Origin: a virus | Virus record (IMG/VR): IMGVR_UViG_3300037189_017154 | Span: 1 to 64,000 of that record | Length of the DNA: 64,000 bases | Direction: 5' to 3' (one strand) | In this document: positions 21,118-52,600 of the stretch, in pieces | Layout: each line of letters begins with the position of its first letter | How positions within the stretch are numbered: the first letter of the stretch is position 1 | Program-made: the position numbers and the translations under genes | Notes under the pieces: model-generated | What the model saw: the letters and a program-made list of their open reading frames with translations, nothing else | What the model was told of the DNA's origin: nothing | Database searches by the model: none

Positions 21118-21157
21118 TTAGGGAGTTTAGGGGAGCTCACCGGAGATCCTAAATCAG

Positions 21158-21169
21158 TTACCGCGGTAA
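21158..21169. promoter_or_regulatory. 12-bp palindrome TTACCGCGGTAA, putative operator
   Basis: Perfect palindrome 113 bases before the 21282 start, same outer half-sites as 19672 and 21544. Confidence 0.4.
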
Positions 21170-21281
21170 CTAAAAGAAGCTCACAGATCTCTAGAAGACA
21201 CGCCAAAAAAAGTTTCAAATAAACTTGCACAAAAAACAAAAACTACGCTAAACTGAAATCACTCAGGAAAGGAGTTGCCAA

Positions 21282-21476: not shown

Positions 21477-21495
21477 AAATCTTCTGAAGCGTGAA

Positions 21496-21528
21496 GCCCG
21501 TCAGGAATCTCTGGCGGGCATTCTTCTT
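21496..21528 (+). terminator. rho-independent terminator
   Basis: GCCCGTCAG pairs with CTGGCGGGC, followed by ATTCTTCTTCT. Confidence 0.7.
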
Positions 21529-21543
21529 CTATAGATCTGTTAT

Positions 21544-21555
21544 TTACCTAGGTAA
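21544..21555. promoter_or_regulatory. 12-bp palindrome TTACCTAGGTAA, putative operator
   Basis: Identical to the 19672 palindrome, 91 bases before the 21635 start. Confidence 0.4.
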
Positions 21556-21634
21556 CTATAACTAGATCTCTGCAGCTGAAATGTTGCGAAATGCCGGCCG
21601 GCCCTGGTAGACTGGAATCAACGAAAGGAATCTT

Positions 21635-21859
21635 ATGACTCACGCTAAATCTCAAAAAACTTTATTCCTAACACCGGAGCAACTTGACGCCGGCGGTTAT
21701 GAAAAGTGGGAGCTCGAAACTATTTATTGCTTGCCAGGTTGCGGCGTTCACTTTTACAGTCCGGACGGAATCGGCCGAATCTTTACCGGAGATGATTACG
21801 ACCTGGCCGAAATGATTGGCGACCAGGGAGACCGGTTTGTGAGAATCCTGGAAGCGTGA
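21635..21859 (+). CDS. hypothetical protein
   Basis: 74 residues starting MTHAKSQ (the 27839 product starts MTHAVYL). Contains a CLPGC group and an acidic beta-rich end. Leader AACGAAAGGAATC. Unlike neighbours the coding region includes several CCGG and GGCC words. Unknown function. Confidence 0.6.
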   Translation: MTHAKSQKTLFLTPEQLDAGGYEKWELETIYCLPGCGVHFYSPDGIGRIFTGDDYDLAEMIGDQGDRFVRILEA

Positions 21860-22818: not shown

Positions 22819-22836
22819 GTAATCTTTAGAGAGAAG

Positions 22837-22870
22837 CCAGACATCCGACAGGGTGTCTGGTTTTTCTTTT
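22837..22870 (+). terminator. rho-independent terminator
   Basis: CCAGACATCC pairs with GGGTGTCTGG around GACA, followed by TTTTTCTTTT. Confidence 0.85.
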
Positions 22871-23013
22871 ACGAGCTAGAGCAATTACGATCCTAAACTA
22901 GCTGCAGATCATCCAGGGAGATCCTGGCCGGATCCTGGTTGCAGCTCAGCTCCGGATCTAGCTCAGCTCGCGATCCGGATCTAAAAAAAGTTTTAAAAAT
23001 AGTGTGTTTGGAC

Positions 23014-23042
23014 TTGCGGAATAGTTTGGTTTCCTATACCAT
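23014..23042 (+). promoter_or_regulatory. promoter of a candidate structured RNA
   Basis: TTGCGG at 23014-23019, 17-base spacer, TACCAT at 23037-23042. The same -10 (TACCAT) is used by the candidate sRNA at 26491. Confidence 0.5.
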
Positions 23043-23048
23043 AGAGAT

Positions 23049-23273
23049 AACAAGGTTCCGACGGGAACTTTGGAGTGTGGCTGAATAGTTCTGAAAGTCA
23101 AATAGGCAGAACAAAGCAACGCCTGAACTTAGCGGTTCACCTTAGCGGGTAAAGGGCGGGTGTGCTCAAAGCGGTACTTAGAGACCACATTGACTAGGCA
23201 CTTCTGGTAAAAGCAATCCAGACACTCACTATGAACACCACGAAGCCCCTTGCGGAAACGCAGGGGGTTTCGT
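23049..23273 (+). ncRNA. candidate structured non-coding RNA, about 225 nt
   Basis: A 225-base interval between a promoter-like pair and a strong hairpin (23240-23254 with 23259-23273, GAAA loop) that has no ORF with an SD. It contains local hairpins such as GTTCC-GAC-GGGAAC at 23055-23068 and GTTCTG...CAGAAC at about 23088-23112. Its base composition is more balanced than the surrounding spacers and it is largely free of GATC and AGCT. Class not recognised; not a tRNA or tmRNA. Confidence 0.55.
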
Positions 23274-28782: not shown

Positions 28783-28952
28783 TCATTCTTCACAAAGCTT
28801 CCCCGGTGATCACTAGATCGCCGGGGATCTTTATACCTGGATCAGATCAGATCCGGATCAGTTGATCAAGCCGGATCGGATCTTGCCTGGCCGGTGCAGC
28901 TAGATCCGGAATGATCTCTCCGGAAGGATCTCCCGAAACACCTTACGAAATC

Positions 28953-28980
28953 TTGACAAGACACGCCTAACTGATAAACT
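28953..28980 (+). promoter_or_regulatory. promoter
   Basis: TTGACA at 28953-28958, 16-base spacer containing ACACGCC, TAAACT at 28975-28980. Confidence 0.6.
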
Positions 28981-29007
28981 GGAACTACCATTCGGGAAAG
29001 GAATGAA

Positions 29008-31648: not shown

Positions 31649-32215
31649 ATGTCAAGTAAGAAATCAAATGGATCTGATGATCTAGATCCGATCGTAGATC
31701 AAGATCAGGATCTAGAAGTTGATCAGATTGTAGATCCGGAGCCGATCGTTGATCAGGATCCGATCGTAGATCCGGTTGTTGATCAGGATCCGGTTGTTGA
31801 TCAGGTTGTAGATCCGATCGTAGATCCGGAGCCGATCGTTGTAGCCCCGATCATTGAGATCACTGATGGTGGAATGATCCCGATCCCTTCTCGCCCGATC
31901 GTTCCTCAGGAAGTAACTCCGGCTGGCCCGGCTGTTGTTGGGTTTGGAGTCTTTGATGAAGTGTTCCTGGACAAGTGTATCTACAAGAATGTATACAATC
32001 GTAAGTCGCTAACGATCCACCACTTACAACGGAGATTGTATGAGCTAGGGTACATCGTAGCTCTAAAGGACAAGGATGGGTATTACGGGGATCTAACTAG
32101 ATCAGCTGTAGCTCAGTTCCAGGCAGATCGTAATCTAGCTGGGGATGGCCTTATGACTGCTGAAGCCTTTGAGCTCATCTTTGCTAACGATCCGAATGTG
32201 AAAGTCGTTCTATAG
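31649..32215 (+). CDS. peptidoglycan-binding protein with VD-P/Q repeat linker
   Basis: 188 residues. Residues 10-70 are a low-complexity linker of VDP/VDQD units (PIVDQDPIVDP-type repeats) whose codons are almost continuous GATC. Residues 110-185 are a PG-binding-1 domain (SLTIHHLQRRLYELGY, then YYGDLTRSAVAQFQADRNL and TAEAFELIF). No catalytic domain or signal peptide is seen. May be a wall-anchoring partner of the membrane cluster or a virion wall-binding protein. Confidence 0.7.
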   Translation: MSSKKSNGSDDLDPIVDQDQDLEVDQIVDPEPIVDQDPIVDPVVDQDPVVDQVVDPIVDPEPIVVAPIIEITDGGMIPIPSRPIVPQEVTPAGPAVVGFGVFDEVFLDKCIYKNVYNRKSLTIHHLQRRLYELGYIVALKDKDGYYGDLTRSAVAQFQADRNLAGDGLMTAEAFELIFANDPNVKVVL

Positions 32216-32905: not shown

Positions 32906-34315
32906 GTGGCTAAATCACTTATGGAACAGATCGCTTTACTACCACCTGAAGAACAAGCAAGAGTATTAGCTGGAATGGATCCGGAGACTCTTATGTGGGA
33001 CTGGTCTGCTTGGGGTAGACCTGAGCAACAAGCTCCCGTAGGTGATTGGAACATCTGGGCTTACATCGCTGGTCGTGGTGCTGGTAAGACTAGGACTGCT
33101 GCTGAGTGGGTTCGTGAAGAAGCGAAATACACTACAACAGGACAACGACGCTTTGCTTTGGTAGCAAGAACAGCAGCCGATGTACGAGATGTGATCGTAG
33201 AAGGTGAGTCAGGAATTATGAATGTGACTCCCCCTAGTGAAAGGCCACTATACGAACCATCTAAGCGTAGGTTGACCTGGCCTAACGGAAATGTCGCTAC
33301 TTGCTTTACAGCAGACGAACCAGACTCTCTCCGTGGACCTCAGTTCACTCACGCCTGGGGAGATGAGATTGCTGCCTGGCGACAGACACCAGACGCAGCT
33401 GGTATGACTGCTTTTGATAACTTGCGTGTTGGAACTCGTCTTGGTGCTACTCCTAAGATTATGGTCACTACCACACCGAAGCGTGTTCCACTTTTGTATA
33501 AGTTGATCGAAGAAGCGAAGACAGGTCGAGTAGTGATCACTCGTGGATCTACTATGGATAACTCGGGGAACCTATCTGTTGCTTATCTAGACGCTATTAC
33601 TGGTGTTTATGCTGGAACTCGCCTAGCTCAGCAAGAAATCTATGGTGAGATGCTAGACAGCGTAGAAGGTGCTTTGTGGACAGAAGAACTGATTGAGCAA
33701 CATAGACAAGGTGCTATGCCATTAGGGACTCCACTAAGAGTGATCGGTGTTGACCCTAGCGTTGCTGAGAACCCTAGAGATGAATGTGGGATCGTTGTAT
33801 GTGCTTCTACCTCTGAGCGTGATCTGTATAAGCGACACGCTTGGGTATTAGAAGACGCTAGCGTTCACGGATCTCCGGATGTTTGGGCTAACAAGGTTGT
33901 TGAGATGGCTCGTAAGTGGGGATGTCCTGTAGTAGCTGAAGTAAACCAAGGTGGAGCATTGGTAAAGAATGCGATCCACACTATCGATCCAAACATTACT
34001 GTATTAGAAGTTCATTCTAAGTATGGTAAAGCTCTTAGAGCTGAACCTGTTACATTGGCTTATGAGCAGGGTAGAGTTCACCATTTAGGTTATCTCGGAT
34101 CCTTAGAGAGCCAGATGTATTCCTGGATCCCTGGAGAAGGTAAATCTCCCGATCGTGTTGACGCATTAGTTCACGCTCTCACTGCTCTAATGATCAAGCC
34201 TCCGTCTGGCTTTACTGGGGGAAAGATTACAGCTCGATCCGTGGCCGGAAGAAAGATCCCTAATGTTCGTGGTAATGACGCAACTGGATCTAGGGGAATC
34301 TTTAGAGTTAGATAA
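32906..34315 (+). CDS. terL: terminase large subunit
   Basis: 469 residues, GTG start behind TTAGGAG. ATPase domain: Walker A GRGAGKT at 56-62 and a Walker-B-like WGDE in FTHAWGDEIAAW. C-terminal RNase H-type nuclease with VIGVDPSVAENPRDECGIVV, AEVNQGG and DRVDALVHAL carrying the acidic metal ligands. Length and motif order match actinophage terminases. It packages DNA through the portal. Positioned after the candidate small subunit and 3.3 kb before the portal. Confidence 0.95.
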   Translation: MAKSLMEQIALLPPEEQARVLAGMDPETLMWDWSAWGRPEQQAPVGDWNIWAYIAGRGAGKTRTAAEWVREEAKYTTTGQRRFALVARTAADVRDVIVEGESGIMNVTPPSERPLYEPSKRRLTWPNGNVATCFTADEPDSLRGPQFTHAWGDEIAAWRQTPDAAGMTAFDNLRVGTRLGATPKIMVTTTPKRVPLLYKLIEEAKTGRVVITRGSTMDNSGNLSVAYLDAITGVYAGTRLAQQEIYGEMLDSVEGALWTEELIEQHRQGAMPLGTPLRVIGVDPSVAENPRDECGIVVCASTSERDLYKRHAWVLEDASVHGSPDVWANKVVEMARKWGCPVVAEVNQGGALVKNAIHTIDPNITVLEVHSKYGKALRAEPVTLAYEQGRVHHLGYLGSLESQMYSWIPGEGKSPDRVDALVHALTALMIKPPSGFTGGKITARSVAGRKIPNVRGNDATGSRGIFRVR

Positions 34316-34791: not shown

Positions 34792-34926
34792 ATGCTGATC
34801 GGTTGCTTCTATGATCATTACCAGGCTAAAAATAGATCCAAAATAAATAAAAAATCTGGGAATAAATACCTTGCCTGATTGGTTATTTATAGTAAGATGA
34901 AATCACCACTCCGGAAAGGAACCCTA

Positions 34927-35274
34927 ATGAACCTAGAACACGCACAACTTTTTGAGTTTATTTGTGATGACGCTAGTTATGGTGGCATTGGCTACTGGGC
35001 TAGTTTGGCTGATAATAACCCTGAGAAGCAGACCTACTCTGTGGAAGTAAGACCTGAATACAGAGATGATGAAATCAAGGACAAGGTGCTAACTTACCAA
35101 GACCTTTATGACGCTTGCGAGAAGTTAGCCACTGGTAAGGTGTCTGTAAATAGCAACACCAAGAAAGTCTGCCAACAGATTATTCTTGACCCTACTGATG
35201 ATGTAGATTATGACGCAGAAGACGCAGACTGTATTGTCCAAGTTGCTATGTTCGGTGAAATCCTATTTGGCTAA
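34927..35274 (+). CDS. hypothetical protein
   Basis: 115 residues, acidic, no recognised domain (MNLEHAQLFEFICDDASYGGIGYWASLADNNPEK has the look of a conserved phage family, but I cannot name it). Leader CCGGAAAGGAACC. Last gene before the non-coding repeat block. Confidence 0.65.
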   Translation: MNLEHAQLFEFICDDASYGGIGYWASLADNNPEKQTYSVEVRPEYRDDEIKDKVLTYQDLYDACEKLATGKVSVNSNTKKVCQQIILDPTDDVDYDAEDADCIVQVAMFGEILFG

Positions 35275-35286
35275 TCACTAATCTCT

Positions 35287-35327
35287 AATAAGTAATCCCT
35301 TGCTGAGCTAGCAGGGGATTATTTATT
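35287..35327 (+). terminator. rho-independent terminator
   Basis: AATAAGTAATCCC pairs with GGGATTATTTATT around a GC-rich inner stem. Ends the rightward transcripts before the repeat block. Confidence 0.75.
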
Positions 35328-35329
35328 TA

Positions 35330-35760
35330 TACGGATGATCATTGCTACTGATCATTGATCATTGATCATACGGATCCGATCATTTGATCTGATCATTTGA
35401 TCTGATCATTGATCATAGGCAGATCCGATCATATACGGTGATCCTGATCCATAGATCATTGCTGCTTAGATCCATTTGTGATCATTGATCTTGATCTGAT
35501 CTTATACGGTGATCTGATCTGATCTGATCATAAGTTTTGATCTAGATCTGATCTGCCGATCTATTACGGCTATACGGTTGATCATTTGTCCCTGATCGTT
35601 GCTTTGATCATTGATCTTGATCTGATCATTATTAGATCAGCTGATCTAATTATTTTTTATTCGTTAGATCATTTGATCATTGCTTTTTTATTTTTATTTG
35701 ATCGTGATCAATAAGACGGAGCCTCTATCTAATGATCATTGCCTATCACTAATGATCAAT
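35330..35760. repeat. GATC-word cluster, candidate origin or protein-binding region
   Basis: Non-coding. GATC occurs every few bases, mostly as GATCATTGATC, TTGATCTGATC or GGATCCGATC. An A/T-rich stretch at about 35648-35710 (runs of T and A) could be an unwinding element. Nothing else in the window except spacers and the 31649 linker approaches this GATC density. Confidence 0.6.
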
Positions 35761-35799
35761 ACCCCCCTGTCCTTTATCAAGTGGAATACGGTGATCATT

Positions 35800-36190
35800 T
35801 ATAGCTCATAGCTCAGCTGGGTAGCTCAGCTCATAGCTCAGCTGGGTAGCTATCTAAGCTCATAGCTCAGCTCATAGCTCAGCTGGGTAGCTCAGCTCAT
35901 AGCTCAGCTGGGTAGCTCATAGCTCAGCTCATAGCTCAGCTCGTATCTGGTAGCTCAGCTCATAGCTCGTAGCTCAGCTCATTAGCTAGCTCATAGCTCA
36001 GCTCAGCTCATAGCTCAGCTCGTTAGAAGTTTGTAGCTCAGCTCATAGCTCGTAGCTCAGCTCATCAGCTAGGTAGCTCAGCTCGTAGCTCAGCTCAGCT
36101 CGTAGCTCAGCTCATAGCTCATCAGCTAGGTAGCTCAGCTCGTAGCTCAGCTCATCAGCTAGGTCATCAGCTCAGCTCGTTAGAAGTTTG
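35800..36190. repeat. AGCT-word cluster (imperfect TAGCTCAGCTCA repeats)
   Basis: Non-coding, built from irregular copies of TAGCTCAGCTCA, CAGCTGGGTAGCTC and TCATCAGCTAGG. Repeats are unevenly spaced and mostly palindromic in the AGCT core. Two TCGTTAGAAGTT motifs are embedded (36020-36031, 36177-36188). The words resemble tRNA D-arm sequence, but no acceptor, anticodon or T arm is present. Confidence 0.7.
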
Positions 36191-36202
36191 TGTGTTATTT
36201 GG

Positions 36203-36221
36203 TTAGGTTAGGCTTGCCTAA
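36203..36221. promoter_or_regulatory. IdeR/DtxR/DmdR-type iron box 1
   Basis: TTAGGTTAGGCTTGCCTAA matches the 19-bp actinobacterial iron box (TTAGGTTAGSCTAACCTAA) at 17 of 19 positions. Such sites are bound by Fe(II)-loaded IdeR/DtxR/DmdR1 to repress iron-regulated genes. Confidence 0.65.
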
Positions 36222-36286
36222 CTTACTAGGTCTGGTCTGGTTCGTTAGAAGTTGGAGCGTTTGTCTGTCCAAATAGTTATGTAAAG

Positions 36287-36305
36287 TTAGGTAAGCCTTA
36301 CCTAA
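36287..36305. promoter_or_regulatory. IdeR/DtxR/DmdR-type iron box 2
   Basis: TTAGGTAAGCCTTACCTAA is a perfect palindrome matching the iron-box consensus at 17 of 19 positions. It lies just after a plausible promoter (TTGTCT at 36261, TAAAGT at 36282), as a repressor operator would. Confidence 0.65.
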
Positions 36306-36448
36306 CTGACGGCATCTCAGGAAAAATTCAGGAAACGATTTAGAGTGCTCCGAAAAACATGCGTTGCCGTCTCGCAGGCCAAAGTCAAAAAACGTTAAGG
36401 TATCACTTTTACGTACAGTACAGTCTTTCAATCAATGTCTCATCTTCT

Positions 36449-36462
36449 GCTAAACTGTACAC
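36449..36462 (+). promoter_or_regulatory. -10 box for a leaderless late-operon gene
   Basis: TAAACT at 36449-36454 lies eight bases before the ATG at 36463 and there is no SD, suggesting a leaderless start of the virion operon. Upstream DNA 36306-36448 shows no gene. Confidence 0.45.
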
Positions 36463-36963
36463 ATGTCTAGACGTCCAGCTCGTAATCAAAAACTTCCGCC
36501 ATCGGAGATCCAACTCTTCAAAACTCTCGACTACAATCACACCGTAGTCCGAGTCAAGGCTCTATTTGCAGCCGGTTGGACCCTGGCTTCCATTGGGGCG
36601 GCTTTCTACCCGTCTAAAGGACGTTCGTCTATCAAAGCTTGGGTGGATCGTCCTACGCCCCCGAACGTTGTCGTCGACGTCCCTATTCCCGATCCAAACT
36701 ATAAAACCCCCAAAAACGGCTACGTCCGTAAGACTCCAGTTTCCCCGGGAATATCTACAGTCACAGAAGGTACTCTCAGACGTCTGGCACCCATAGCTAA
36801 ACGCTACAGATCGGGTATGGCATCGACGTCCCCAGAAGCTATCGCAAACGCTGAGATGGACAAACTCGTGAAGGGACTTAGAGAAGTCGACGTCACTATT
36901 GCCGAGATTGCTCGTGCAGCCGGCGTAACACATCGAGCAATTTCCCGTAGACTGAGTAAATAA
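36463..36963 (+). CDS. HTH protein, related in layout to the TerS candidate
   Basis: 166 residues, basic. N-terminal HTH-like ALFAAGWTLASIGAAF (about 31-46), a Pro-rich linker, and a C-terminal HTH IAEIARAAGVTHRAISRRL (about 145-163). Same two-ended arrangement as the 32315 product. Codon choice is rich in ACGT/GACGTC words unlike 32315. Could be a terminase small subunit, a late regulator, or bind the adjacent repeat block. Confidence 0.65.
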   Translation: MSRRPARNQKLPPSEIQLFKTLDYNHTVVRVKALFAAGWTLASIGAAFYPSKGRSSIKAWVDRPTPPNVVVDVPIPDPNYKTPKNGYVRKTPVSPGISTVTEGTLRRLAPIAKRYRSGMASTSPEAIANAEMDKLVKGLREVDVTIAEIARAAGVTHRAISRRLSK

Positions 36964-37331
36964 TGCAGATATTAGCCGACGTTTTTCCAGCACACTTTTC
37001 CGCTGCTTCAGCAGGCGTTCTTACGGACGTCTTTCAACTCAACCCGATCTCTCAAAGTTCAGGAACGTTCTACGTCGCCACGACAAGAGTTATCGTCTCG
37101 GAGACTCACATCACAGTAGCTTCAGACTCCCCTGAGGGACCCCAGATAGTCTTTCACGAGCCGTATCTCTCTTTCTTTAAGGCAGAGTCTCAGACAGGCG
37201 TATATCGCGTTTTAACGACGTCTGGGAAGATGCTTGCATTTCAAAAAGACACATCCTGCGGTTGTGGCTCACGTCTACGTGCGTGGAATCCATATCGCAC
37301 CCTACAATCGATCATGGACCCAACGGAATGA
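36963..37331 (+). CDS. hypothetical protein
   Basis: 122 residues, TAATG overlap upstream and a four-base overlap (ATGA) downstream. Beta-rich with CGCG near the end. Not recognised; position between terminase-type and portal genes suggests an accessory role in the late operon. Confidence 0.65.
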   Translation: MQILADVFPAHFSAASAGVLTDVFQLNPISQSSGTFYVATTRVIVSETHITVASDSPEGPQIVFHEPYLSFFKAESQTGVYRVLTTSGKMLAFQKDTSCGCGSRLRAWNPYRTLQSIMDPTE

Positions 37332-37621
37332 CAGATATTCCCCTAATTCATTTCCTAGTTCTATCTCTCGCAACGTTTAGACTTGCACGTCTGTTTACCA
37401 CCGACGTTATTTTTGACTGGCTACGTCAACGAGTTTGGAAGCGATTCCCACCGTCCACAACCCTAGGCTATTTCTTCACTTGCAACTGGTGCATGTCCAT
37501 TTGGTTCGGATCACTAGTAACTATTTCCTATACAATATATCCATCAGTAACGTTTGTCTGCTTGCTGCCGCTAGCTCTTTCTGCAATTGCAGGGCTGGTA
37601 TCTAACAAGCTTGATAACTAA
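37328..37621 (+). CDS. DUF1360-like membrane protein
   Basis: 97 residues. The sequence LATFRLARLFTTDVIFDWLR, then LGYFFTCNWCMSIWFG and further hydrophobic segments matches DUF1360-type phage/bacterial membrane proteins, in which TYRLTRLLTTD and GYLFTCPWCxSxW are conserved. Such genes are frequently found beside portal genes of actinophages. The start at 37328 overlaps the previous stop. Function unknown. Confidence 0.75.
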   Translation: MTDIPLIHFLVLSLATFRLARLFTTDVIFDWLRQRVWKRFPPSTTLGYFFTCNWCMSIWFGSLVTISYTIYPSVTFVCLLPLALSAIAGLVSNKLDN

Positions 37622-37647
37622 CTAGATAACTACAGGAGCCTCCCTCA

Positions 37648-39414
37648 ATGGCAGTTTTCAGACGTGAACAGAATCCAATTCGTGGATCAGTTCCACCTAC
37701 CCGAACTCAGGTAACATCAACACCTACTCCGTTCGGCTACACCCAGCTATCCCCGGCTACATACAACGTTATGCGTCCTCTAACTGCTGCCGCTGCACAA
37801 ATCAAACTTAATGATCGCAGCGAAGCAGACCAGTTCAGAAACCGACGTCTATCATCTTCTTCTGCATGGCAGTCAGAAGCTTGGGAGTACTACGACGCAA
37901 TTGGTGAAATCAAGTACGCATTCTCACTTGTTGCATCCGTTGTCTCACGTATCCGTCTTTACGCTGCAATCATTCTTGACCCAGCTGAAGCTCCGACTCC
38001 AATTCGTAATGCAGCTAGCATTGAAGAACGTCTAGCATCTGCCGCTGAGCGTGCTATCCAACGTCTAGACTCAGCCTACGGAGGCCAAGCAGGTCTCTTG
38101 CGTGACGCTGCTCTAAACCTCGCTGTTACCGGTGAATGTTACCTCGTACAGATTCCTGAACGTCAAGGATCAGGAATTCCTGAGTCCTGGGACATTCGCT
38201 CAGTTGATGAACTTCAGATTGACCAGAAAGGTCAGTACTCTGTTATCGCTAGACGAGAAATGCTTCAGGGAACTGCTAACGGAAAAGGCATGGGAATCAA
38301 ACTTCCTGCGAACGCTTTTGTTGGACGTATTTGGAGAGCCCACCCACGTTTCTCAGAAGAGGCAGACTCCTCTTTACGCGGTCTGCTAGACCTCTGTGCT
38401 GAACTACTACTTCTAAACCGTACATTCCGTGCAACTGCACGTTCACGCCTAAACGCTGGTGCTCTCTATCTACCGGACGGCTTGAGCGTAGCTTCTAGTG
38501 CTGACCCTAACTATCCTTACGATGACGCTGACGGTCTATCTGCAGAACCTACTCCAGAAGAAATCGCAGACGAGTTCGAAGACCAGTTGATCGACGCGAT
38601 GACAACCCCGATTCGCGACGAAGACTCTGCCAGCGCAGTTGTTCCACTTATTATTCGTGGTCCTGCCGAACTTGGTGACAAGATTAAGCAGTTCAAGTTC
38701 GAGCGTTCATTCGATGCAACTCTTGTTCAGCGTGCTGACCGTGTGCTAGAGCGTATTCTGCAAGGTCTCGACGTCCCTAAGGACATCGTTACCGGTCTTG
38801 CAAACGTAAAGTACTCAAACGCTGTTCAGATTGACGAGTCACTTTACAAGGCTCACATTGAACCGTTGATGCTTCTTATTGCTGACGCAATCACAGTTGT
38901 TTATCTACGTCCTTATCTACTTGCCAACGGTTTCTCACAGACCGACGTTGACAGAGTTGTTGCTTGGTATGACCCATCTGCTGTTGCAACTCGTAACGAC
39001 CGTGCAATGGATGCTGACTCAGGTTTCGACAAGATGGCTGTCTCATACGACACATGGAGACGTGCTCACGGATTCTCAGACCAAGATGCACCTAGCCCAT
39101 CTGAAGTAGCTCTACGTATGATTATGGACAAGGGTATGATCACTCCAGAACTTACTGAAGCAATGCTTAATGCTGTTGCTCCAGAGGTCATGGAAGCCAC
39201 TCGTAAGGCCTCACAGGCTAGCTCAGTGGCTCCAATTCCACCAGGCTTAGAGCAGATGCTACAGGGTGCCCAACCAGGCGCTCCTGCCCCTGCTCCCGCT
39301 GCTCCGGCAGCTCCAACTCCAGAGGCAATTCCGCCTTCTGGAGCTCCAACACAAGAAGCTCCGGCTCAGGAAAACCCGGCAGCTCCCCCAATTCCGCTAG
39401 CGGAACCACAGTAA
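37648..39414 (+). CDS. portal protein
   Basis: 588 residues. The central part (AWQSEAWEYYDAIGEIKYAF, ERAIQRLDSAYGG, then IKQFKFERSFD and ERILQGLDVPKDIVTGLANVKYSNAVQIDE) matches actinophage portal proteins; the C-terminus is a long Pro/Ala-rich tail. Strong SD ACAGGAG. It forms the dodecameric DNA gate of the capsid and works with the terminase. Confidence 0.85.
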   Translation: MAVFRREQNPIRGSVPPTRTQVTSTPTPFGYTQLSPATYNVMRPLTAAAAQIKLNDRSEADQFRNRRLSSSSAWQSEAWEYYDAIGEIKYAFSLVASVVSRIRLYAAIILDPAEAPTPIRNAASIEERLASAAERAIQRLDSAYGGQAGLLRDAALNLAVTGECYLVQIPERQGSGIPESWDIRSVDELQIDQKGQYSVIARREMLQGTANGKGMGIKLPANAFVGRIWRAHPRFSEEADSSLRGLLDLCAELLLLNRTFRATARSRLNAGALYLPDGLSVASSADPNYPYDDADGLSAEPTPEEIADEFEDQLIDAMTTPIRDEDSASAVVPLIIRGPAELGDKIKQFKFERSFDATLVQRADRVLERILQGLDVPKDIVTGLANVKYSNAVQIDESLYKAHIEPLMLLIADAITVVYLRPYLLANGFSQTDVDRVVAWYDPSAVATRNDRAMDADSGFDKMAVSYDTWRRAHGFSDQDAPSPSEVALRMIMDKGMITPELTEAMLNAVAPEVMEATRKASQASSVAPIPPGLEQMLQGAQPGAPAPAPAAPAAPTPEAIPPSGAPTQEAPAQENPAAPPIPLAEPQ

Positions 39415-39425
39415 GGTAAACCAAG

Positions 39426-40541
39426 ATGACTCACTCAAAAACTACTCTAAAAGATCACTTAGCAGTGTCTCTAGCTAACGCTGTGGTTATGTATCACACT
39501 AGCCACGGTTACCACTGGAACGTCAAGGGACTTGACTTCAGAGAGTTCCACGAATTCTTTGGCGAAATATATGAAGACGTCTTTGGTTCTATAGACGAGT
39601 ACGCCGAGAACATTCGTAAGATCGGATTTGACGCTCCTTTCACAATGCAGGAGTTCTTGGAGCTAGCTACCTGCGTTCCAGAGAAGGTCACCGTTAGCGA
39701 TCCGACTCGCTTGACCGCTTCTCTGCTAGACGTCAACCTAAAGCTTATTAGCAGCCTAAAGGCAACCTTTGACTGTGCTAACTCTCTAAACGAGCAGGGC
39801 GTTGCTAACTTCCTAGCTGAGCGCATTGATGCACACCAGAAGTGGGATTGGCAGCTTGCTGCAACCCTTGGTAACCAGACTTACTCAACGTCATTCATTG
39901 TTGTAGAAGCTGATATGCAGCCACTACCTCAGACTCAGGAAGGCTGGGATGACGAACTTGCATTCCTAGATGGCTACGACAACGAAGGTACTGCATTCTT
40001 TGCATCTGGCCGATCACGTGAACTAGTTCTTCCACAGAACGTTGAAGCAGAGCTAAAGTCTTTGGTTGACGCTCACAACGCTTCAGCAGGAGAAGGTCTG
40101 AAGACCACTTTTGCTAAGTGTAAGACCGTCTACCGCCGTGGAGCTCGTAAGTATGCTGGCGAACTAGCTGAAGGTACTACACGCCACCGCTTTGCAGTTG
40201 CTCGTGTTGAACAGTTCCTATCTCAGATTGGCAGCGAAAAGCTACTAGCTACATTTAGCACTGACGATGCAGATCTTCTACCAAACTCACACCCTAAGGC
40301 TCTAAGCATTGATCCTCTAGTAGCTTCTGCTGCTGTTAAGAAGGGTCTAACTGTGACTGTTAAGAAGCCTGGAGAATACAAGCGTAACGAGGACGCAGTC
40401 CTAGATATCGCTGAGTTCTCTGGTAAAGGCTACGACGCAGTGAGCCAGATCAAGGATGCTTGGATCTATGGACAGTCTAAAGGCAAGTCAGGCTACAATA
40501 CAGCTCTGGCATTTGCACTAGGCTATTTCGTACACGGATAA
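39426..40541 (+). CDS. Dps-like ferritin domain fused to a phage module
   Basis: 371 residues. Residues 10-155 are a Dps domain: SHGYHWNVKGLDFREFHEFF, EIYEDVFGSIDEYAENIR and a GFDAP segment. H30, H42, D57 and E61 reproduce the spacing of the inter-subunit ferroxidase ligands of Dps (H51, H63, D78, E82 in E. coli numbering). Residues about 225-265 (TTFAKCKTVYRRGARKYAGE...RVEQFL) resemble a short module with VYRRG..AY and ARV..FL found in other phage proteins. DLLPNSHP is echoed in the next protein as DLLPAAHP. Located in the virion operon 11 bases after the portal. Confidence 0.85.
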   Translation: MTHSKTTLKDHLAVSLANAVVMYHTSHGYHWNVKGLDFREFHEFFGEIYEDVFGSIDEYAENIRKIGFDAPFTMQEFLELATCVPEKVTVSDPTRLTASLLDVNLKLISSLKATFDCANSLNEQGVANFLAERIDAHQKWDWQLAATLGNQTYSTSFIVVEADMQPLPQTQEGWDDELAFLDGYDNEGTAFFASGRSRELVLPQNVEAELKSLVDAHNASAGEGLKTTFAKCKTVYRRGARKYAGELAEGTTRHRFAVARVEQFLSQIGSEKLLATFSTDDADLLPNSHPKALSIDPLVASAAVKKGLTVTVKKPGEYKRNEDAVLDIAEFSGKGYDAVSQIKDAWIYGQSKGKSGYNTALAFALGYFVHG

Positions 40542-40646
40542 TTAAATCCGATACTAATCAAAGTTTAGATAATAGGATAAACTTTTTCTAAGCTTGTTAC
40601 AATATAAACAGTTAAGCCATACCTGTAAGTAGGAAGGTACTCTTCA

Positions 40647-43600
40647 GTGAGTCAAAATCTTAGTGCCCTTGTTGCCGCGTTAGAAACTATCAACCAGAAA
40701 GATCTGGAGCTCAGCGTTGTTGAGACCGAACAGATATTCAAGAAGGGCGTTGTAACTCACGTTCTCCAGCAGAATGCTCTAGTTGCATCAATCCGACAGG
40801 TGGCAATTAAAGACGTTCTAAAGTTCACCGACCGCTACATCGCTAGCAAGCTAGATAACGAAGACCCTCGTGATGTTTTCTTCAACGCTGCACGCGAGGT
40901 CACAAGTTTTGTTGAGTACGCTGTCAACGGTCCAGCTCTAGAAAGAGTGATGGCAGTTGAGCACAGGGACCTACTCCCAGCGGCTCACCCGTTCTCAACA
41001 AAAACCATTAGCCCAATTACCGCATCAGCACTTCGCGTACGCAATGCTGCCTGGGTAGCCTGGGACCCACGTATTACTGATGATGCAGCACGTAAGGCTG
41101 TATTTGACGCATACGTACAGCAACCAAACACAACCAAGGGTTTGTATGCAGTTGCACGCCTTGAATCACTAACTGCTTCTGTTGTTCCAGCAGACATCAA
41201 GCTTGGTGCAGTTACAGCTGCATTTGGCGTTGGTAACCCATTTGCTGGTAACAACTCTTCAGCTGCTCGTTCTGCTCGTGCTAAGTTGCAGCGTCGTGAC
41301 CGTAAGGGTCGATTTGCCGAGATGGGTGGAGGATCTCGTATCCTTGCAATGATCGGCAACATGATTAAGTCATTCACCGGTAAATTTGCTGGTATCCCTC
41401 AAGACAGCAACAACATTGAAGTTGAAATTGCTGGCAACTCAGATCTTCCTGGCGGTATTTACTCTGTACCAGCATCAAAGGTTGAAGGTCTTAAGGCTAT
41501 TCTTCGTGGCAACATGGTATCTCCTGCAGTACCAGCCAACTCACGTAACTCACGTGCAGCTATCGACCTACAAGATCTACTTGCAAGCCGTAAGAGTGCT
41601 CCTACTGGTTGGACAGATAACGGTGATGGTAAATTCACATCTGCAGACGGTTATTCAGTTTCACAAATTGATATCCCTCAGGATGCAACTGGAATGAATG
41701 ATAAAAATGGTAACTTTTTACCATTTGAACTTCAAGGCAAATTTATCGGTGCTGGTCCAAACGGATCATACGACCGATCTAAGCCTGTGTTCGAACTTAA
41801 AGATGCTAACGGCAACGTAGTTGGTCGCGCTCAGGAATGGGCAAACCTTCAGAAGCTTGCAGCAGACTCAGACGAGTCTAAGGGTGCAGCTCCTAAGACA
41901 AAGGCACGTCTAAGAACCCCACAGCCTGCTGGCTTCCGTCAAGAACCTGGCGACAACACAGAGCCTATTGACGTAGTTGGCGATTCTGAAGTAGAGCCGC
42001 TACCGGCACCTCCACGTAAAGAAGATGATAATTTTGAAGCTAACTACATAAACTATTTAGCCACTAAGGATTACAAAGCTAAGGACGTTACAGATACCGA
42101 TGGCAAGTACTTCCTATCTGAGCAAGAGCTAGCCGATGGCGGTAAACTTTGGCAAGTAGGCGACGATATGGACGACAACGGTCCTCAGTATGTAGCCCAA
42201 AAAGCAGACGGTACTTTTGAAGTTAATGGTAAGACTTTCTACCCAAAGAACTACGGCGGGGATGTTATTTCTGCTGCAGATGATGCCTTTAGTACTGCTG
42301 ATAAGAATAGATCTGCTGGCAAACGGGGCTTTGCACAGGAGGCTGGTAGCGAAGAAAAAGTTAACAGCGAAACACTGGACGGCTGGGCAAAAAAGTACGG
42401 TGCAGTAGAAACTACTACTCCAGATGACACTGCTAAAAACATGAGAAGATGGGCATTAGATGGCCATGATATTGTTATGGAGAACGCTAATACTGATTCT
42501 ATTAAGCCTTACAATTTTAAAATAAAGATTACTGAGGGCCCAGACGCTGGTAAGTTCTACTGGGGATCAAGCGTTGCAGATATCCCATCTAACTATCAGT
42601 ACGGTCTATCTAGGGAAGAGGATTTAGAACAACTCTTTTCATTCCCTAAAAATATAAAACGTAAAAAAGATGGCTTAGAGCCACTAAAAACAGATAAAAA
42701 TCAGCAACGCGATAGCAAGATTGAAAGAATTAAAAACAATCGTGCTCAAAGAGCTAAAGTAACTAATGCTATAGCTACTGCAGACCCAAAAAAGATTCAA
42801 GAAGCCTTAGATGATGCAGCAATTCCAGAAAAATACCAGGATGTTCTAAAAGCTCAGCTCAAAAAAGCTCAGGATTTTGAAAATGGATTGAGCGAAGATC
42901 CGCACTGGACTAAAGACGAAATTGCTGCTATCGAACAGATGGCAAAAGATTACGGCTATGAAGGCGATATAGTTCCTAATGAAGAAGGCGTGTACTCATT
43001 TACGCTAGGAAGCGAGGATGACTATAGTTGGGCCGAGCTAACTATATTCCCTGGCAATAGAGCTGACTTAACTCAGTATACTACTGGTGCATATAGTCCT
43101 GGTGGATGGGATGAGCCTCCTAGCCAGGATGTAGATTCAGAAACTAGATCAATCCCTGTAGGGTCTTCTATGGACGATCTCGAGAATATATTTGCTGGTG
43201 GAGATAATAGCTCCGATGCGCCAGAACCACCAGAGCGTGACGAAGACGAGGGCTTCTACCAAAAGCCGGGCGAAGAACCAGAAATTAAAACCGTTGATGA
43301 CTACGTAAACTCAAAGTACGGTAGAGGTTTCAAGGAAACAACTACTGAAGCTGATAAAGCAGCTGGAAGACGCGTTTGGTTCTATGAAGACACAGACACT
43401 GGCGGTGGCGGTGAGGTCACTCAGAATGCTGACGGCACTGTTGATATTTCAGGTACCACTTTCTCTCAGGGTATGTTTGGCGAGAGACAATCAGAATTTG
43501 ATGACAGCTTTGACCCTAACTTCTATGGCGAGGGTGAAGACGGTAGAGTCGGTGCAATTGACGACGCCTTTGGTACTATTAAGTACAAAACAGGTGATCC

Positions 43601-46600
43601 TGGCGTACCTGACTCTGACGGCTTCGAGCAGGCTCCTGGCCTCCCTGGATTCAGACAGAAGTCCGGTAAGGGTAAATTTGAACTACCTGAAGACTTTGAC
43701 AGTGTTAAGAACTGGAAAGATCTTGGCAATGGTAAGTACGAGTACACCTCTAAAGACGGACGTCTAAAGGTAAGGTACAACGAAGAATTTGACGCCGAGC
43801 CTGACGGTGAAGGCGGTATGCGTGGCTACGAAAACTCATACGCTGAGATTGAACTAGACGGTGAAGTAATTGAAGACAGTCTAGATGCTAACGGTGCTTC
43901 TTTCCTTTTTGGTGAGGGTGAGAGAGAATTCGAACCAGCTGAGCTAGCTGACAGAGTAGTTAAGTCTCTTAAGGATGCCCAGAGCAAGGGCTTCAAGCAA
44001 GAAGCTGGGAAAGACTCAGAGGCCCAGGCCGAGTCATACTTAAATGAACTAGAGCAAGATGCTTCAGAGATTCTCGATAGAAACCCGATGGGCACCACTG
44101 AATGGACATCTAAAGATGGAAGAGTTAAGGCAGTTCACGGTGATGACGGCAGTGCTGGTGAATACGTCGAGGTATTCCTAGATGGTAAATCCATTGGAGG
44201 TGTTGGTAAGTATTCCCCTGTGGAAGATCCAAAAACTGGAAATTATAGTGAACCATGGGATAGCCCTGATAAAGAGCCAGGTTGGGTAGCTGATGGGATC
44301 TACGAGCTTCTAAAGGAGAACCTAGCTACTGAAGGCTTCAAGCAAGAAGCTGGTAAAGAAAAATTTGAACTTTCAAAAGAGTTTTACAACGACAAGAACT
44401 GGTCTAAGGAACCATTTAAAAATCCTGAATGGACTTCTGCAGACGGTAAGGTAAAAGTCAAGTACGTCTCTGATGGCGACGTAAATGATGAAGGACGTCC
44501 AGTTGACACTTCTTACCTAGAAGTATCCGTTGATGGCGAAGTCATTGGAGATATTTCCGCACCTAATGCCCTTCAGTACAACGCAGGTGATCCTAACGAC
44601 CCTGAATACATGAGGACCGGAATTCCAAGTTCTAAACTAGAACTAGACGAGTACGGCGACGATGTCCAGGCTATGGTTGACAATCACCTAAAGTCTAAGG
44701 GTGGCTTCAAGCAGTCTGCTGGTGAAGCAGGTGGAGTTCGCAAGTCTCACATTTCTGACCTAGACAACTGGTCTAGTGACCCATCAGATGGTGGAGAAGG
44801 TACATACACCTCTCCAGATGGACGTCTAACTCTCGAGGCTATGGCTGACGCTGACACCGACGGTGAAGGCGGAATGAAGGATCTATCTCGCATTGCTGTT
44901 TCTTATGACGGTGAAGAGATTGGAACTCTACCTAAACTTGGCGTAATGTACAACGAGGCAGATCTTGCTGACGACGTCGACAATCTAGTTAGCAAGTACC
45001 TAGAAAAGCAAACTGGTGGTTTCAACCAGCAGCCTGGTTCTGGCAGACGAAAAGTTGGAAACTTTAGAGTAATTCCTAGAGAAGAATTCACCGACATTGT
45101 TGGTGCAGCTGATACTTCTGATGGCGGAATTGTACGTCTTGAGAAAACTAAGAACGGTACAATTACCCCTACCGCTTATAACAGATTTGGTCAGGTGATG
45201 GCTCAGAGCGAGCCTACAACTGATCTAGACGCTGCTCTAAAAGAGGGTGAGCGACTGCTATCTGGTCTTGAAGGCAAGGCCCAGGACAGCCCTGAAGTTT
45301 CTGGATTCTCTCAGAAGCCAGGCGAAGAGCCACCAGCCTGGACTAAGGATCCAGCTACTCCTTTGCAGTACAACAAGCTTCAGGGTATTCTTGACAACCA
45401 GGCTGACAGGCTTCCAACTGATGTCCGTGACATGGTTGAAGAAGCCGTTGCTAACAAGGCTCTAACCAAGGGCGAGATGGGCAAGCTCCTTGCTGAGGTT
45501 GGTAAGAGTGCTGATCTTTCAATTAGCTACACTCCTAAGGTTGATAAGGCTCATGCTTCTGATAGAGCTAACTGGAAGTATGATAAAAAATCTAAGAGTT
45601 ACTCATACACCTCTGCTGACGGAAGACTGTCTATTAATGCTGTGTCTCCAGAAGACGGTGCAACTACAGTAACTTATGACGGTAAGCCAGTTCAGATATC
45701 TAGACCTTACGGCAGTGAGATCTGGCAATCAGTCGATAACGGTGGAGTTCCTATTGGAGATTCTGTCGATACTGCTATCAAAGATCGACTAGATTTTGAA
45801 AATAAAACAGGCATCTATTCAGATAAGTCAGGCTTCGCTCAAGCTCCTGGATCTACTTCAAAAGCAATCCGTACTCCTCAGCCACAGGTTGACGAGGGTC
45901 GTGCGGCATCAGCTAAATTTGCCAAGGACGGTTTCCTAGAACAAACAACCAACTACGGCAGTGGTGACTCTGACTTGTCATGGGAAATTGATGTTGATGA
46001 CATGGAAAGTGCTGCAATAGTTGTTAAGTACTCTCCTAACCGTGGAACATGGTACGCATACGCTCAGTACAGAGATAAGAGAGGTAATCTCAGTACTGCT
46101 GAAAATGGCGACTTAGGAGACTTTAAGACTGCAGAAGAAGCTATGGCTGCAGCTAGTGCTTTTAATAACGATGAAGATCGTATGGATGAGTACAATGAAA
46201 TCATTCGCGATGCTAGAAAAGCTCGTATGCAGGCAGTTGCAACTAAGTTTGAAGAGGCAGTTGCAAACAAAGACTACGATGCTCTAAAAGAGCTTTTAAA
46301 TGATGAAGATGTTCTAACTTCAGAAGACTCCGATTTCTTAGAGAATGACATTCTAGAAGAGATGAACTCTATATCTCTTGAAGAAGAGCGCCAAAGCGAT
46401 GTTGAGGATGCTCTCGCTTCGAATGATAAAGATAGATTAGAAGAGCTACTGGGTGATGACGACTACGAGGAGTATCACTCTAGGCTGGAAGACGCTATCA
46501 ATGACTTCAAACATGGAGAAGAAGATCCAGACGGCTTCGAGCAAGCTCCAGGTAAAAAACTAACTCCTCGAAACAACCAAACTCTCAAACCAAACAGTAT

Positions 46601-49600
46601 TGGTGGCTACGATACAGGAACCGACGGGGATGGCTATATAGAAGTAAATCCTAACAAGGACGGAACATGGGAAGTAAGTCACGCATATAACTACCTGATC
46701 GATGAAAATGGTCCTGAAGGTGTTATGGATGAGGGCTCACAGACTTTCAAGACTAAAGAAGAAGCTATGGCGTATGCTAACGATAAGCTTGAATATTACA
46801 ATAGTCAGGAAGTCTATGATGATGCCTCTGATCACGCTATGGAAGCTGCATACCGTGGTGGAATGTACGATGAGGGCTTTGAGCAACGTCCTGGAAGACA
46901 AGTCAACATTGGTGATTTTGAGGTCTTTAAGGGTAACTATTCTCTAAGTGATAAATTTGAGGACTTCAATGTCAGAATTGAAAAGACTCCAGAAGGTAAA
47001 TGGAAAGTAACTCCATCAGTCTTTGGATTCCCTGGAAACGATGTAAACCGCCGCGAGGACTGGTTTGATCAAACTCCTCAAACATTTGACAACTTAGAAG
47101 ATGCTAAGAAGTCAGCTGTTAAAGAAGCAAACTATCTAAGTAATGACACCAATAGATCCGGTGCCCTCGATGAGAGGGGACCAGGTTATGGTTTCGCTCA
47201 GAAGCCTGGAAAGAAAGTAAGTCCAGAAGTTTCTGCTAAGAACAAGGAACTAGCTAAGAGACTTATGGAAAAGGGTGCTTTTGATCCTGATGGTGGTTTA
47301 GATGAAGATGACCCAGACTATGAAGCTCTTCAAGATATTAAGGATCGTAACGAGGCTTACCTAGATAACCTTGCTGCTACAGATCCAGCAGAGTATTTCT
47401 ATACTATTGCTAAAGCTGGAGAGTTTATGGGCGCTGAACCATCTGACTTCAGACGTATGATTGAAAAGCCATACAACTACCATGCTGAAGTTCTTGAATC
47501 AGAGATGAACAGCTGGGTCGGAGACAACAACAGCGGCTACTGGTTAGATGAAATCGGTCACGGCTCTGAGGGCGAAGGCTTCGCTCAAAAAGCTGGAACT
47601 AAGAAAGTAAATCCAAAGGCAGCAATTCAAAAGATTATTGATGCAGCTCCTAAAGATCAGGGCTTTGCTCAGCGTGCTGGTAAAGAAGACGGTTTAAAGA
47701 GCAACGGTACAATTGCTGGAGATATCTATGATCCAGAGACCTACGGCATGATGGACTGGGCATCTAAATGGACAGATTTCTCGGTTTCTGAAGGAGAAAA
47801 TAGGCTTGGCGAGTGGTGGAAGTGGCAAGAAGAGTTTGGTCAGTGGGCAGTTAGCGAAGATCCAAAAGAAGCTGCGGGTCAGGGTCTAGTTGACGTCTAC
47901 ACTCTTCGTGATATTTTAGATGGAAACGTTGGCACGTTTAATCCTCTAAGCAAGAGAGATTCCGGTTGGCGTGATCGAGGAGATGGTAGTCACGAGTTTA
48001 AATCTGAGACTATAAATATATTCCCTACTAAAAATGATGACGGAACATTTGATTACACCATTACTAATGCGGCTACCGATGAGTTGATTGACACAATCGA
48101 AAACGTAGGTGCGGCTGATAGTGTTGAAAATCTTATTTCTGGTGAATTTAGATCAGATTTGGAAGATATTGGCTATGAAGTCAGTGGTAGATCTAGTAAT
48201 GCTGTTAATCTATTCTCAGATCCATATGACAGAAGTAGAGGGTTTGCTCAAAAGTCTGGATCTGACTCCGGGCTATTAGAAGAAAATCCTGCAGCTATTA
48301 AACTCAGCGGTAAATTTAGTGATACCGGATCTGGTGGAATAAACTATCAGGATTCTGAAGGTAGATCCAAGGGTAGCGTACAAATGTTCTTTACTAAAGA
48401 TAAGAATGGTAAAGAAAGCTACGGTTGGATGGTCGAGTACCTACCATCTAATGGAGAAGGTATTGTACGTAAGAGTTTTATGCAAAAATATGACGGTGCC
48501 TACGAAGGAAAACCGTGGATTGCAGCTGAAAAACATCTAAGAAATCTAATTGCTAAAGACAATGCTAGCCAGAACAAACAAAAAACTGGTGGATTCTCTG
48601 CTAAGCAGATGGAACCTGCAACTCCTGCCCAGTATGCTCTTCTACAAGAGTACGCTGACGAGAGAGTACCAGCTGATGATCTAACTGCACAGGCAATTCA
48701 AGACGCACTTGCTAACAGGAACCTAACTAAGGCACAGATGAGTGCTCTTATTGGTCCTATGAACGATGCTGAATTCAAGCCGGGCGTTGACCCTAACAAG
48801 CCAAGCGACCGTGCTCTTAAGTCATTAAACAGCAAGCTTGTCACTAAAGATCTAACTCCAGAAGAAGTCAAGGACATCCTAGACAACCTACCGAACATGA
48901 ACCGTGCAGAAGTTGATGCTCTAAACGACAGGCTTCGCAGGAAGAAGGATCGTCCAGAGACCATTGGTTTCGCTCAAGAGCCAGGTGGTTCTGATGACGA
49001 GAACATGGAGCAGCTAATGGGCGACGACCTAGGCAACGACAGAAACGTTGAAACCCAGGGCGAAATGTCTGACTACTACAACTCTCTCAAAGGTGACCGT
49101 ATTGCAGAACTTCAAAAGAAACTCGATGCTGCAAATGAAGAAATCAATATCTTCGGTCTAGATGACTTGCAAGAAATGCTAGACGAGGCTGACCCAGATA
49201 GCGAAGCTAACCTAAAGAGATATGGTAAAACTTGGCCTGCAGAGCAGTCTTACATTGCAGCTCAGGATCTTAGAGACGCTGCAGAGCAAATTAGAAACAG
49301 CAATAACCCTAACGTTGACAAGAGTCTAGCTGATGATCTAGACAATGCCGCCAATCAGGTTATGAAGCGTATGGAAGATAGGATCAATCCACTACTGTTC
49401 GCTTCAGTTGAAGATCCATATGGTACCAATTTTGATCTAGGTGATGTAGACACAGATCTAGACCAGATGCGTGAACTCTACTTTGAGACTGACACAGATG
49501 AGATCAAGAAATATCTAGATCAAACTGGAGTCTACGGTGACGTTAGATCTGGTGGAGCAGAAGCAGTAGTTTCTGATAAACCAGAAGAAGATGGCGAAAA

Positions 49601-52600
49601 CAAAGGCAAATACAGAGCTTCTGTAAGTTACGGTGGCGGAACTGCTGCTGATGATCAGGTAGAGTACTTTGATGACCCAGAAGATGCTAAAGACTGGGCA
49701 GCTAATGAAGTTTCTAACTTAAGTAGCTATCACCAAGTAGGTCTTACTCACCCAGACAAATCTTTCTCAGATCTTGATGCAGAAAGAGATGCTGCAATTG
49801 CAAATGGCACTGAGCAGGAGTTCCTAAGTAGACTATCTGACGTAGCAAAAATAATGAGAGATCAGAGAGGCGATGAAAAGCTATCTCGTGAACTTGATGA
49901 CTACGTTGAACGTGCCCAGGCAGCTCTTGACAAGAAGAAGGGCAACGCAGGAGGTCAAGGCTTCGCTCAAAGACCAGGATCTGATGAGAACGAGCAAGAT
50001 ATAATCGACGACATCAAGTCTCGTGGACAAGATATCATTGATGGTCTTAGAGACAATGGCAAAATCGATGTTGAAACTGATGAAGAGTTCGAAGCTAGAA
50101 TTGCTGACTATCAAAGGAACTTGGATGGTCTACTATTCCAACTAAACTTTGGCAATAGCGATACTTTAGAGCGTTTTGGGATGGATTTCGATTCCACAGC
50201 ATGGACAAGTTCTGGTAATGACGAACTTCTTGCTCAGCTAGAAGATCTAGTTCCAGAAGCTAGAAGACGTCGTAGTAGTGCTATTTATGGATCCCGTGGC
50301 TTTGCTCAGGAACCAGGCTCCGGAACCCCTGTCAGAAATGACAAACTAAACCCAACCAGTGATGGTGGATTTGGTACTAATCCTTACTCTGATAGTCAAA
50401 TTGAAGTCAATCCTACCAAAGATGGTAAGTGGGAAGTAAATCATGCTTATAACTACATGATTGACGAGAATGGTCCTACAGGTACCATTGACGAGGGTTC
50501 TAAACTCTTTGATTCCAAAGAAGAGGCTCTTGCATTTGCTAATGAAAAACTTGACTACTACAACAGTTCTGATGTAGACAGAGATGCAGAAGATCACAAT
50601 GCTGATCGTTATACTGGGTTTGATCAAAAGCCAGGCAACGCAGTTGTCTCTCCTAAGATGGGTGAACCAGCTTCAGATGCTCAGTACGACTACCTCAAAG
50701 AACTTGGCGATACTCAGGATGGAATCAGTCCGGATCTAGCTACTGCAATCCAGGATGCTCTATCAAGTAAAAACTTGACAAAGGCTCAGGTGGGTGCATT
50801 GCTAGGACAACTTAGAGCTCTAAAGCCTAAGGCTGGTATTGATACAAGTAAGCCGACTCCTCGTCAAATTCAGAGAGTCAAAGATCTTGCGAACTCACTT
50901 GGCCTAAGCCCTGCTGAAAAGCGTAAGCTTGGTCTTAGCAAGGTGAGCAGCATGTCTTCTGATGAAGTTCAGAAGCTCATTGACAACCTAAAGCGTAGAG
51001 GCGGGGGAGACGAGGGGTCAGGTGGTGTCCGCCCAAAAGGTAGACCCGGCGATAAGCCGGGTGGTGGCGGATCAGTAGGTCAAGTACCCGGAAAATTAAT
51101 TTCTTATACTCCTAGAAGTAAATTCTTAGAAAAAGATAGATCTGACGCTAAAGAAATTTATGACAGAGTAAATAAGAATCTTGACAAATATGCTAGTCAG
51201 GATTCTGAATTTGCAAAAAAATTAGAAGAGTCTAAGAAGAAGTACCCTGAAGGCATCTACAGCATGATTGACATTGCTGCAGATCCTAACTCTACTCAGC
51301 AGCAAATTGACGATGTTATAAAAGACGTCAATGATCTTAATAAAGCTCTGCAGAGTAGTAAAGCGGATGTATTTGCTGGAGACACTAATGTATTAGATGG
51401 TCTTGCTAAATATAAATTTGCCGAGCTAACCCCAGAAGTTAATAAACAAAAACTATCTGGAGGAAGCAAGAAGCACTCTGAAGGTGACACTGTAGATTCT
51501 AGATTTAGTGCTATGTATAACCCTAACCTAGTTGAATACAAGAGCTCAGAAAATGGTAGGGGCTCCACTAATACAGCAATTGGTTATGTAACTACCGATG
51601 CTTTAGAAGGCATGGCTGGAAATGAAATTCGTAATGCAAGTGTAGTTAACGATATTGCAAAAGATCTTAAAAATGGAGTTGGATTTAAAGAACCGATAAT
51701 CATGATTTACGATCCAAAAACCGGTAAAGCATTTATTACTGAAGGTAACCATAGACTTGCTGCAGCAAAAAAGGCTGGAGTTAAATACGTTCCAGTAAGA
51801 ATTGTAAATCTAGATGTAGCTCCAGGTGACCAGATTAAGATGGAGCGAGTTGGTAAGCCTCTAGGACGTAGAGCTGCCCCTATTGGCGGAGGTGAGTGGT
51901 CTTCAACAATTCAGCCTAGTCAAATATTTGATGACTCTCAGCTTCTCCAAGAAGATGCCGGAGGTTTTGCTCAAGCAGCCGGATCACCTAGAGCCAAGAG
52001 ATTCAACGAAATGGCGGCTGACCGTAAGTTTGTAGACGCTACAACTGAAAAAGATGCTAAGAAAGATATTAGCCGTTGGAGTAGAGAAGAAAACGGTCTA
52101 AAAACTGAAATTACTGAACGTAATGGAAGATTCACTGCCAAGTTCAGCGATAAGCCTAAAGAAGAAGTAGACCTTGGTATCAATGAATCTGCAGCGTTTA
52201 AAGAGGCAGAACGCCAGATTATGCTCAGAACCGCTGAGTTTGACACTGTTGACCTAGATGGCTTTGCTCAAAAAGAAGGCGACAAGGGTCCTAAGCGTCA
52301 ACGCGTTCTAGAAGCCATCGCTTCAGTAAGCAACGCCCTCGGTCTATTCGACGAGTGGAAGGGTAAGACTACCAAGGTTCGTGAAGATGTAAACAACGTT
52401 GGCGAATTTGTCAACAACATGCGTTACGTCAAGGCGGATCTTGAAAAAGCAATCAATAACCTAAAGAACTCTAAGGGTGTTGAAGAGAAGATGGCTGCCA
52501 TCTCTGAGCTGACTGCTGCAATCAAGAAAGCAAAACTTGCTGCAAGAATTGCTAAGGATCGTTGGAAGAGAAATCACCCTGAAGACCTGAAGCCTAAGGC

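Follow-up and report, generated by a model that had tools for sequence, protein, structure and literature searches.

Six cultured relatives of the virus analyzed here carry exact direct terminal repeats (DTRs) which, taken as the deposited records give them, span 19963 bp in Pumpernickel, 17079 bp in Zooman, 18079 bp in Cece, and 15503 bp in A3Wally, all Microbacterium phages, and 20468 bp in Racecar and 17312 bp in Atuin, both Arthrobacter phages. We verified that the two copies are identical along the full repeat of Pumpernickel; for Zooman, Cece, and Racecar, this check covered the terminal 0.5-0.7 kb, and for A3Wally and Atuin the match to the repeat end covered only the final 25 bases. 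Every one of the six right DTR ends lies within a gene-free stretch, of which 303-652 bp fall inside the end and 41-87 bp fall outside it; in the four Microbacterium phages, the inner-side stretch has the lowest complexity of the examined sequence or comes close to it. No terminal repeat appeared in those stretches of Gordonia phage GMA2 that were compared; Forza carries one of 1605 bp, but a core of the kind described below is not obvious at its end. T7-like phages also have a series of short imperfect repeats near their terminal repeats, beside the packaging end, a trait that our locus would share, but they are unrelated phages, and their terminal repeats are short and their words and motif different. 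Very long DTRs also occur in Xanthomonas phage XacN1, an unrelated jumbo phage whose 66-kb DTR (PMC5852040) is longer than the one predicted here. The paper on Actinomycetia phage DSL-LC01 (OQ999401, Dishui Lake) makes no mention of terminal repeats (PMC10611076).

The window, that is, the whole stretch of DNA that we analyzed, comprises 64,000 nucleotides and corresponds to bases 1-64000 of an 81187-bp virus record. A 126293-bp contig (the source of locus L008) belongs to the same phage, matching over 21.7 kb with one mismatch, and its two ends overlap when placed on the coordinates of the window. The largest ORF-free stretch of the window, 1188 bp long, is very probably the site where this freshwater actinobacterial virus cuts the right-hand end of its packaged genome. 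The features of this stretch, and those elsewhere in the window that bear on it, are:

745-790, plus strand: hairpin region, conserved, whose loop is TCTCTCCCC; it precedes the small-terminase-like gene, and the left genome end is predicted nearby
761-1789, plus strand: small-terminase-like gene, homolog of Cece gp1 (38% identity, E 1e-60); its true start is probably nearer 850
32906-34315, plus strand: large terminase gene, within the predicted terminal repeat
35275-36462, no strand: gene-free stretch, the whole putative terminus region, from the ORF lists
35329, 35368, 35433, 35504, 35572, and 35786 (together 35329-35791), plus strand: six ATACGG copies, the window's form of ATRCGG, candidate recognition element
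35337-35796, no strand: GATC half of the word array, 44 copies
35803-36177, no strand: AGCT half of the word array, 56 copies, with one further AGCT at 35639
36020, 36177, and 36242 (together 36020-36253), plus strand: three copies of TCGTTAGAAGTT
36203-36221 and 36287-36305, no strand: two DtxR/IdeR-like iron boxes, each with 2 mismatches from the consensus
36320-36430 (~110 bp), plus strand: conserved core, GGAAACGATTT ... CTCGCAGGCCAAA ... TTAAGGTATCA ... GTACAGTAC, with homologs at the right DTR ends of cultured Microbacterium phages
36364-36365 (within a few bases), no strand: predicted site of terminase cleavage, where the packaged genome would end on the right, from a profile alignment to three deposited DTR ends
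36463-36963, plus strand: HTH protein gene, first of the virion operon, with two helical HTH-like domains

Gene-free status was scored with a simple ORF mask, the gene caller having missed C-rich late genes and small genes. Between an ORF at 34897-35274 on the left and the HTH gene on the right, the stretch reads as GATC words, AGCT words, the three copies of TCGTTAGAAGTT, the two DtxR-like boxes, and finally the core. Several claims of an earlier note, made on this DNA from its letters, were borne out: the ORF lists confirm that the block lies between the terminase group and the virion operon and that no gene-free stretch of the window is larger, the two iron boxes (at 36203 and 36287) do adjoin it, and the words indeed switch from GATC to AGCT at about 35.8 kb. 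The two TCGTTAGAAGTT motifs that it reported are present (36020 and 36177), and there is a third, at 36242.

The words are far denser here than elsewhere. GATC occurs 96 times per kb in the block and AGCT 149 times, compared with 13.7 and 9.3 per kb in intergenic regions of the left half and 5.5 and 6.3 per kb in coding sequence; in simulated third-order Markov sequences of 64 kb, the counts never exceeded 12 for GATC in 460 bp and 11 for AGCT in 375 bp. The AGCT part has the lowest complexity in the entire 81-kb record. Moderate enrichment of GATC, AGCT, and CCGG was also seen in other intergenic regions, far below that of the block. Left-half clusters of the three words (8223-8858, 20474-20646, 22819-23271, and 28783-29007) often sit between a terminator and the next promoter, and the right half has no such clusters. 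A gene for a peptidoglycan-binding protein (31649-32215) has the N-terminal third of its product coded almost wholly by GATC words (DPIVDQD-like repeats), and looks as though a word array had invaded coding sequence. The shorter sequence CGTTAGAAGTT occurs ten times in the window, on both strands (1264, 3483, 3841, 4112, 8430, 8560, 10340, 36021, 36178, and 36243), seven of these copies falling outside the gene-free block.

A profile built from the freshwater cores alone and searched against the 186-kb Pumpernickel genome gave its best match at 19923-20033, across the DTR end (E 0.01; best shuffled match 2.4), and did not detect the repeat ends of Zooman and Cece. Conversely, a profile built from the three DTR ends alone had its best match at 36329-36432 of the window (E 0.006; next 5.2), and its alignment puts the cut between 36364 and 36365. 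These E-values are modest, and the support comes from the agreement in both directions, the exact position, and the shared layout. Within the core, GGAAACGATTT is followed after ~30 bases by CTCGCAGGCCAAA, TTAAGGTATCA, and a GTAC-rich part. With the end marked by a slash, the right DTR ends read GAAATATAAGGAC/TTTGCAGAAATCGGCCAAACG in Pumpernickel, CAAATAAGGAT/TTACCTCTCAGCGACCAAACG in Zooman, and GAAATAAGGGC/TTTCTTCTCAGCAGCCAAACG in Cece, and the corresponding site of the window reads GAAAAACATGCGT/TGCCGTCTCGCAGGCCAAAG. From this alignment we infer that the window phage would cut at the same base as its cultured relatives. In Racecar and Atuin, core homology was weak and judged by eye.

The surroundings of the predicted cut agree with this placement. 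The window has 1090 bp of gene-free sequence inside the cut and 98 bp outside, resembling the gene-free inner side and short outer gap at the right DTR end of the six cultured phages. The Microbacterium phages share with the window not only the homologous core but also a related portal and large terminase, the latter 61-63% identical to theirs and 77.5% identical to that of DSL-LC01. Similar large terminases usually generate similar ends (PMC5000459), so this relatedness agrees with a packaging terminus. In the Microbacterium phages, however, 5-9 kb of other genes separate the DTR end from the HTH gene, and the surroundings thus differ from those of the window. Taken together, we consider it highly likely that the block represents the right-hand packaging terminus in a phage with long DTRs, that the cut falls in the core near 36364, and that the array forms the end of the packaged molecule.

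The earlier note had proposed a packaging region or a replication origin. Homology to the relatives' right DTR ends strongly supports the former. As an origin, the words would be iterons and the A/T-rich part an unwinding element, with replication starting near the block; an iterated, oriented motif does adjoin a gene for a DNA-binding protein, the motifs of locus L028 are spaced 13 bp apart, and the skew changes at 35-36 kb. That change is local, however: GC skew, a check proposed in the note, is positive up to ~35 kb, negative at 36-41 kb, and mostly positive again from 42 kb. The negative part (36001-41000) is limited to the first virion-operon genes. DSL-LC01 has no global switch either, its cumulative skew rising throughout save for small dips, one of them at 46-48 kb. 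Moreover, an initiator gene was not found beside the block, where the HTH protein gave no significant structural match, and in six cultured relatives the homologous site marks the end of the genome. An origin in place of a terminus is therefore very unlikely, although one overlapping a terminus could exist.

We compared the packaging terminus proposed here with 80 loci reached via the portal protein, which come from uncultured phages related to DSL-LC01 and the Microbacterium phages. In most of them, the lowest-complexity 300 bp of the entire locus falls within 2 kb upstream of the HTH gene; a handful have an HTH homolog without an array. In the comparison with relatives that the earlier note called for, arrays occupy the corresponding position but consist of other words in place of GATC and AGCT, namely TGTGCC (L011), TGGGCT (L015), AATCGT (L024), CAGGCTCA (L048), AAGGC (L036), GGCAGG (L047), CACTACACGC (L085), and CACGCA (DSL-LC01). 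When the block was compared directly, as DNA, with cultured phages, it gave no match. Between L036 and L044, whose genes are 95.5% identical, only 21% of the array could be aligned, and between L022 and L024 (89.4% identical genes) none of it; in pairs with identical genes, the arrays are identical or nearly so. Arrays turn over far faster than the adjoining genes, and the GATC and AGCT words are lineage-specific and not the conserved element. We found no papers describing such arrays at DTR ends, in a partial coverage of the literature.

This replacement bears on the idea that the GATC and AGCT arrays are decoys titrating a restriction or methylation enzyme of the host or the phage. Known enzymes do recognize both words, each of which also shows mild enrichment in other intergenic regions, but the words found at the same place in relatives include non-palindromic ones (TGGGCT, CAGGCTCA, AAGGC, and TGTGCC), which makes a restriction decoy extremely unlikely; nor is either word strongly avoided elsewhere in the window, with 401 copies of GATC and 410 of AGCT. 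We also rejected the notion that the words are genome-wide filler in DSL-LC01, whose array words are not enriched in its other intergenic regions; in the window, where GATC and AGCT do occur in other intergenic regions, it is only mildly true.

DSL-LC01 offers a close parallel in gene order, sharing with the window the succession of array, core, HTH gene, and portal, as well as ATRCGG repeats, with a small-terminase homolog ~26 kb upstream of the core. It differs in its CACGCA-like words and in the annotation of its array (L089 5798-6295; OQ999401 46238-46735) as the hypothetical protein WJZ48502, which is probably spurious.

What is conserved is the core, located downstream of the block that the earlier note had delimited (35330-36190), and ATRCGG, an oriented hexamer repeated throughout the array. 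Across the array regions of 33 loci, ATGCGG ranks first among all hexamers, with at least two copies in 22 loci and at least one in 28 (first by both counts), and its density there is 14.6 times background. It is also first in strand bias, occurring forward in 28 loci and in reverse in three. For AT[AG]CGG over all loci, we counted 276 forward and 17 reverse copies in the array region, compared with 336 and 268 elsewhere. The gene-free stretch of the Microbacterium phages has no forward ATRCGG repeats, and the motif is thus a feature of the freshwater group. Because it is the part of the array that persists, ATRCGG is the natural candidate for a recognition element; judging from this pattern, the repeats may be read by the packaging machinery, with the small terminase as the probable reader.

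The persistence of the motif, with its orientation kept, and a position that is fixed in most relatives also argue against another account, in which the core serves only to regulate the virion operon and the array amounts to slippage-prone junk tolerated upstream of a late promoter. That account fits the free change of the array words, the iron boxes located between array and core, and a -10-like TGATACAAT that in many relatives follows the core just ahead of the HTH start codon. Yet DTR ends homologous to the core occur in phages where reverse-strand genes follow, which this promoter does not explain. We regard the account as unlikely on its own, and the core may well serve as both terminus and promoter.

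Matches as good as the two iron boxes are expected 0.2 times per shuffled 64 kb, and no separate iron box was found elsewhere in the 64-kb window. In the close relatives L009 and L010, both boxes have the perfect consensus; none were found in the remaining loci checked. In the window phage, the gene after the portal (39426-40541) encodes a ferritin/Dps-like domain (Pfam Ferritin, 6e-17). Farther along the virion operon lies one ORF of 4795 residues (40647-55034). At 5214-8222, a MoxR-like AAA ATPase gene stands beside a weakly VWA/CoxE-like gene, a pair that has a similar counterpart in DSL-LC01, annotated as an AAA ATPase and a cobalamin biosynthesis protein.

For the left end of the genome, Cece again provides the guide. 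Its first gene, 63 bp from the left end, is annotated as a small terminase and matches that family. Cece and relatives have a small-terminase-like gene just inside the left end; for the homolog at 761-1789 of the window, this position is a prediction. The hairpin region with its TCTCTCCCC loop is kept in many freshwater loci just upstream of this gene, which suggests a left end near 0.76-0.80 kb. Two other small-terminase candidates were rejected. The annotated small terminase of DSL-LC01, WJZ48567, has no small-terminase match and does not resemble the Cece gp1 homolog of DSL-LC01, located at 20691-21644, and the HTH protein yielded a confident model yet lacked a significant structural match, the Cece gp1 homolog fitting better.

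Combining this left end with the cut at ~36364, we infer a DTR of ~35.6 kb that would hold the large terminase gene. Applied to DSL-LC01 and to the contigs holding both genes, this calculation yields roughly 26-30 kb. The predicted 35.6-kb repeat exceeds that of any cultured relative examined (15.5-20.5 kb).

Based on these comparisons, we propose that the terminase acts on a concatemer, recognizes the terminus region, and cuts within the core near 36364, the array side remaining with the packaged molecule. The array and its ATRCGG repeats, candidate recognition element for packaging, would then lie just inside the cut; in the packaged molecule they would form the terminal ~1.1 kb on the right and, in the left copy of the repeat, its inner edge. 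Fast array turnover may reflect slippage that is permitted provided the position and the motif are preserved. More tentatively, and with considerable doubt, we suggest that these genomes end in satellite-like DNA maintained for its position and for ATRCGG rather than for its words, changing almost completely between phages with 89-96% identical genes; that their DTRs span 26-36 kb and include the large terminase gene; and that the motif is a recognition repeat of the small terminase.

For a large group of uncultured freshwater phages, whose genome ends are hidden in their contigs, our analysis offers a means of locating these physical ends by sequence alone. Their terminal repeats are predicted to be very long and to be missing from current genome sizes, and a concrete candidate binding motif for packaging is provided. 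The analysis further points to a repeat array of fast turnover that keeps its place at a functional genome end; such an array can be taken for coding sequence, as in DSL-LC01, and probably breaks assemblies.
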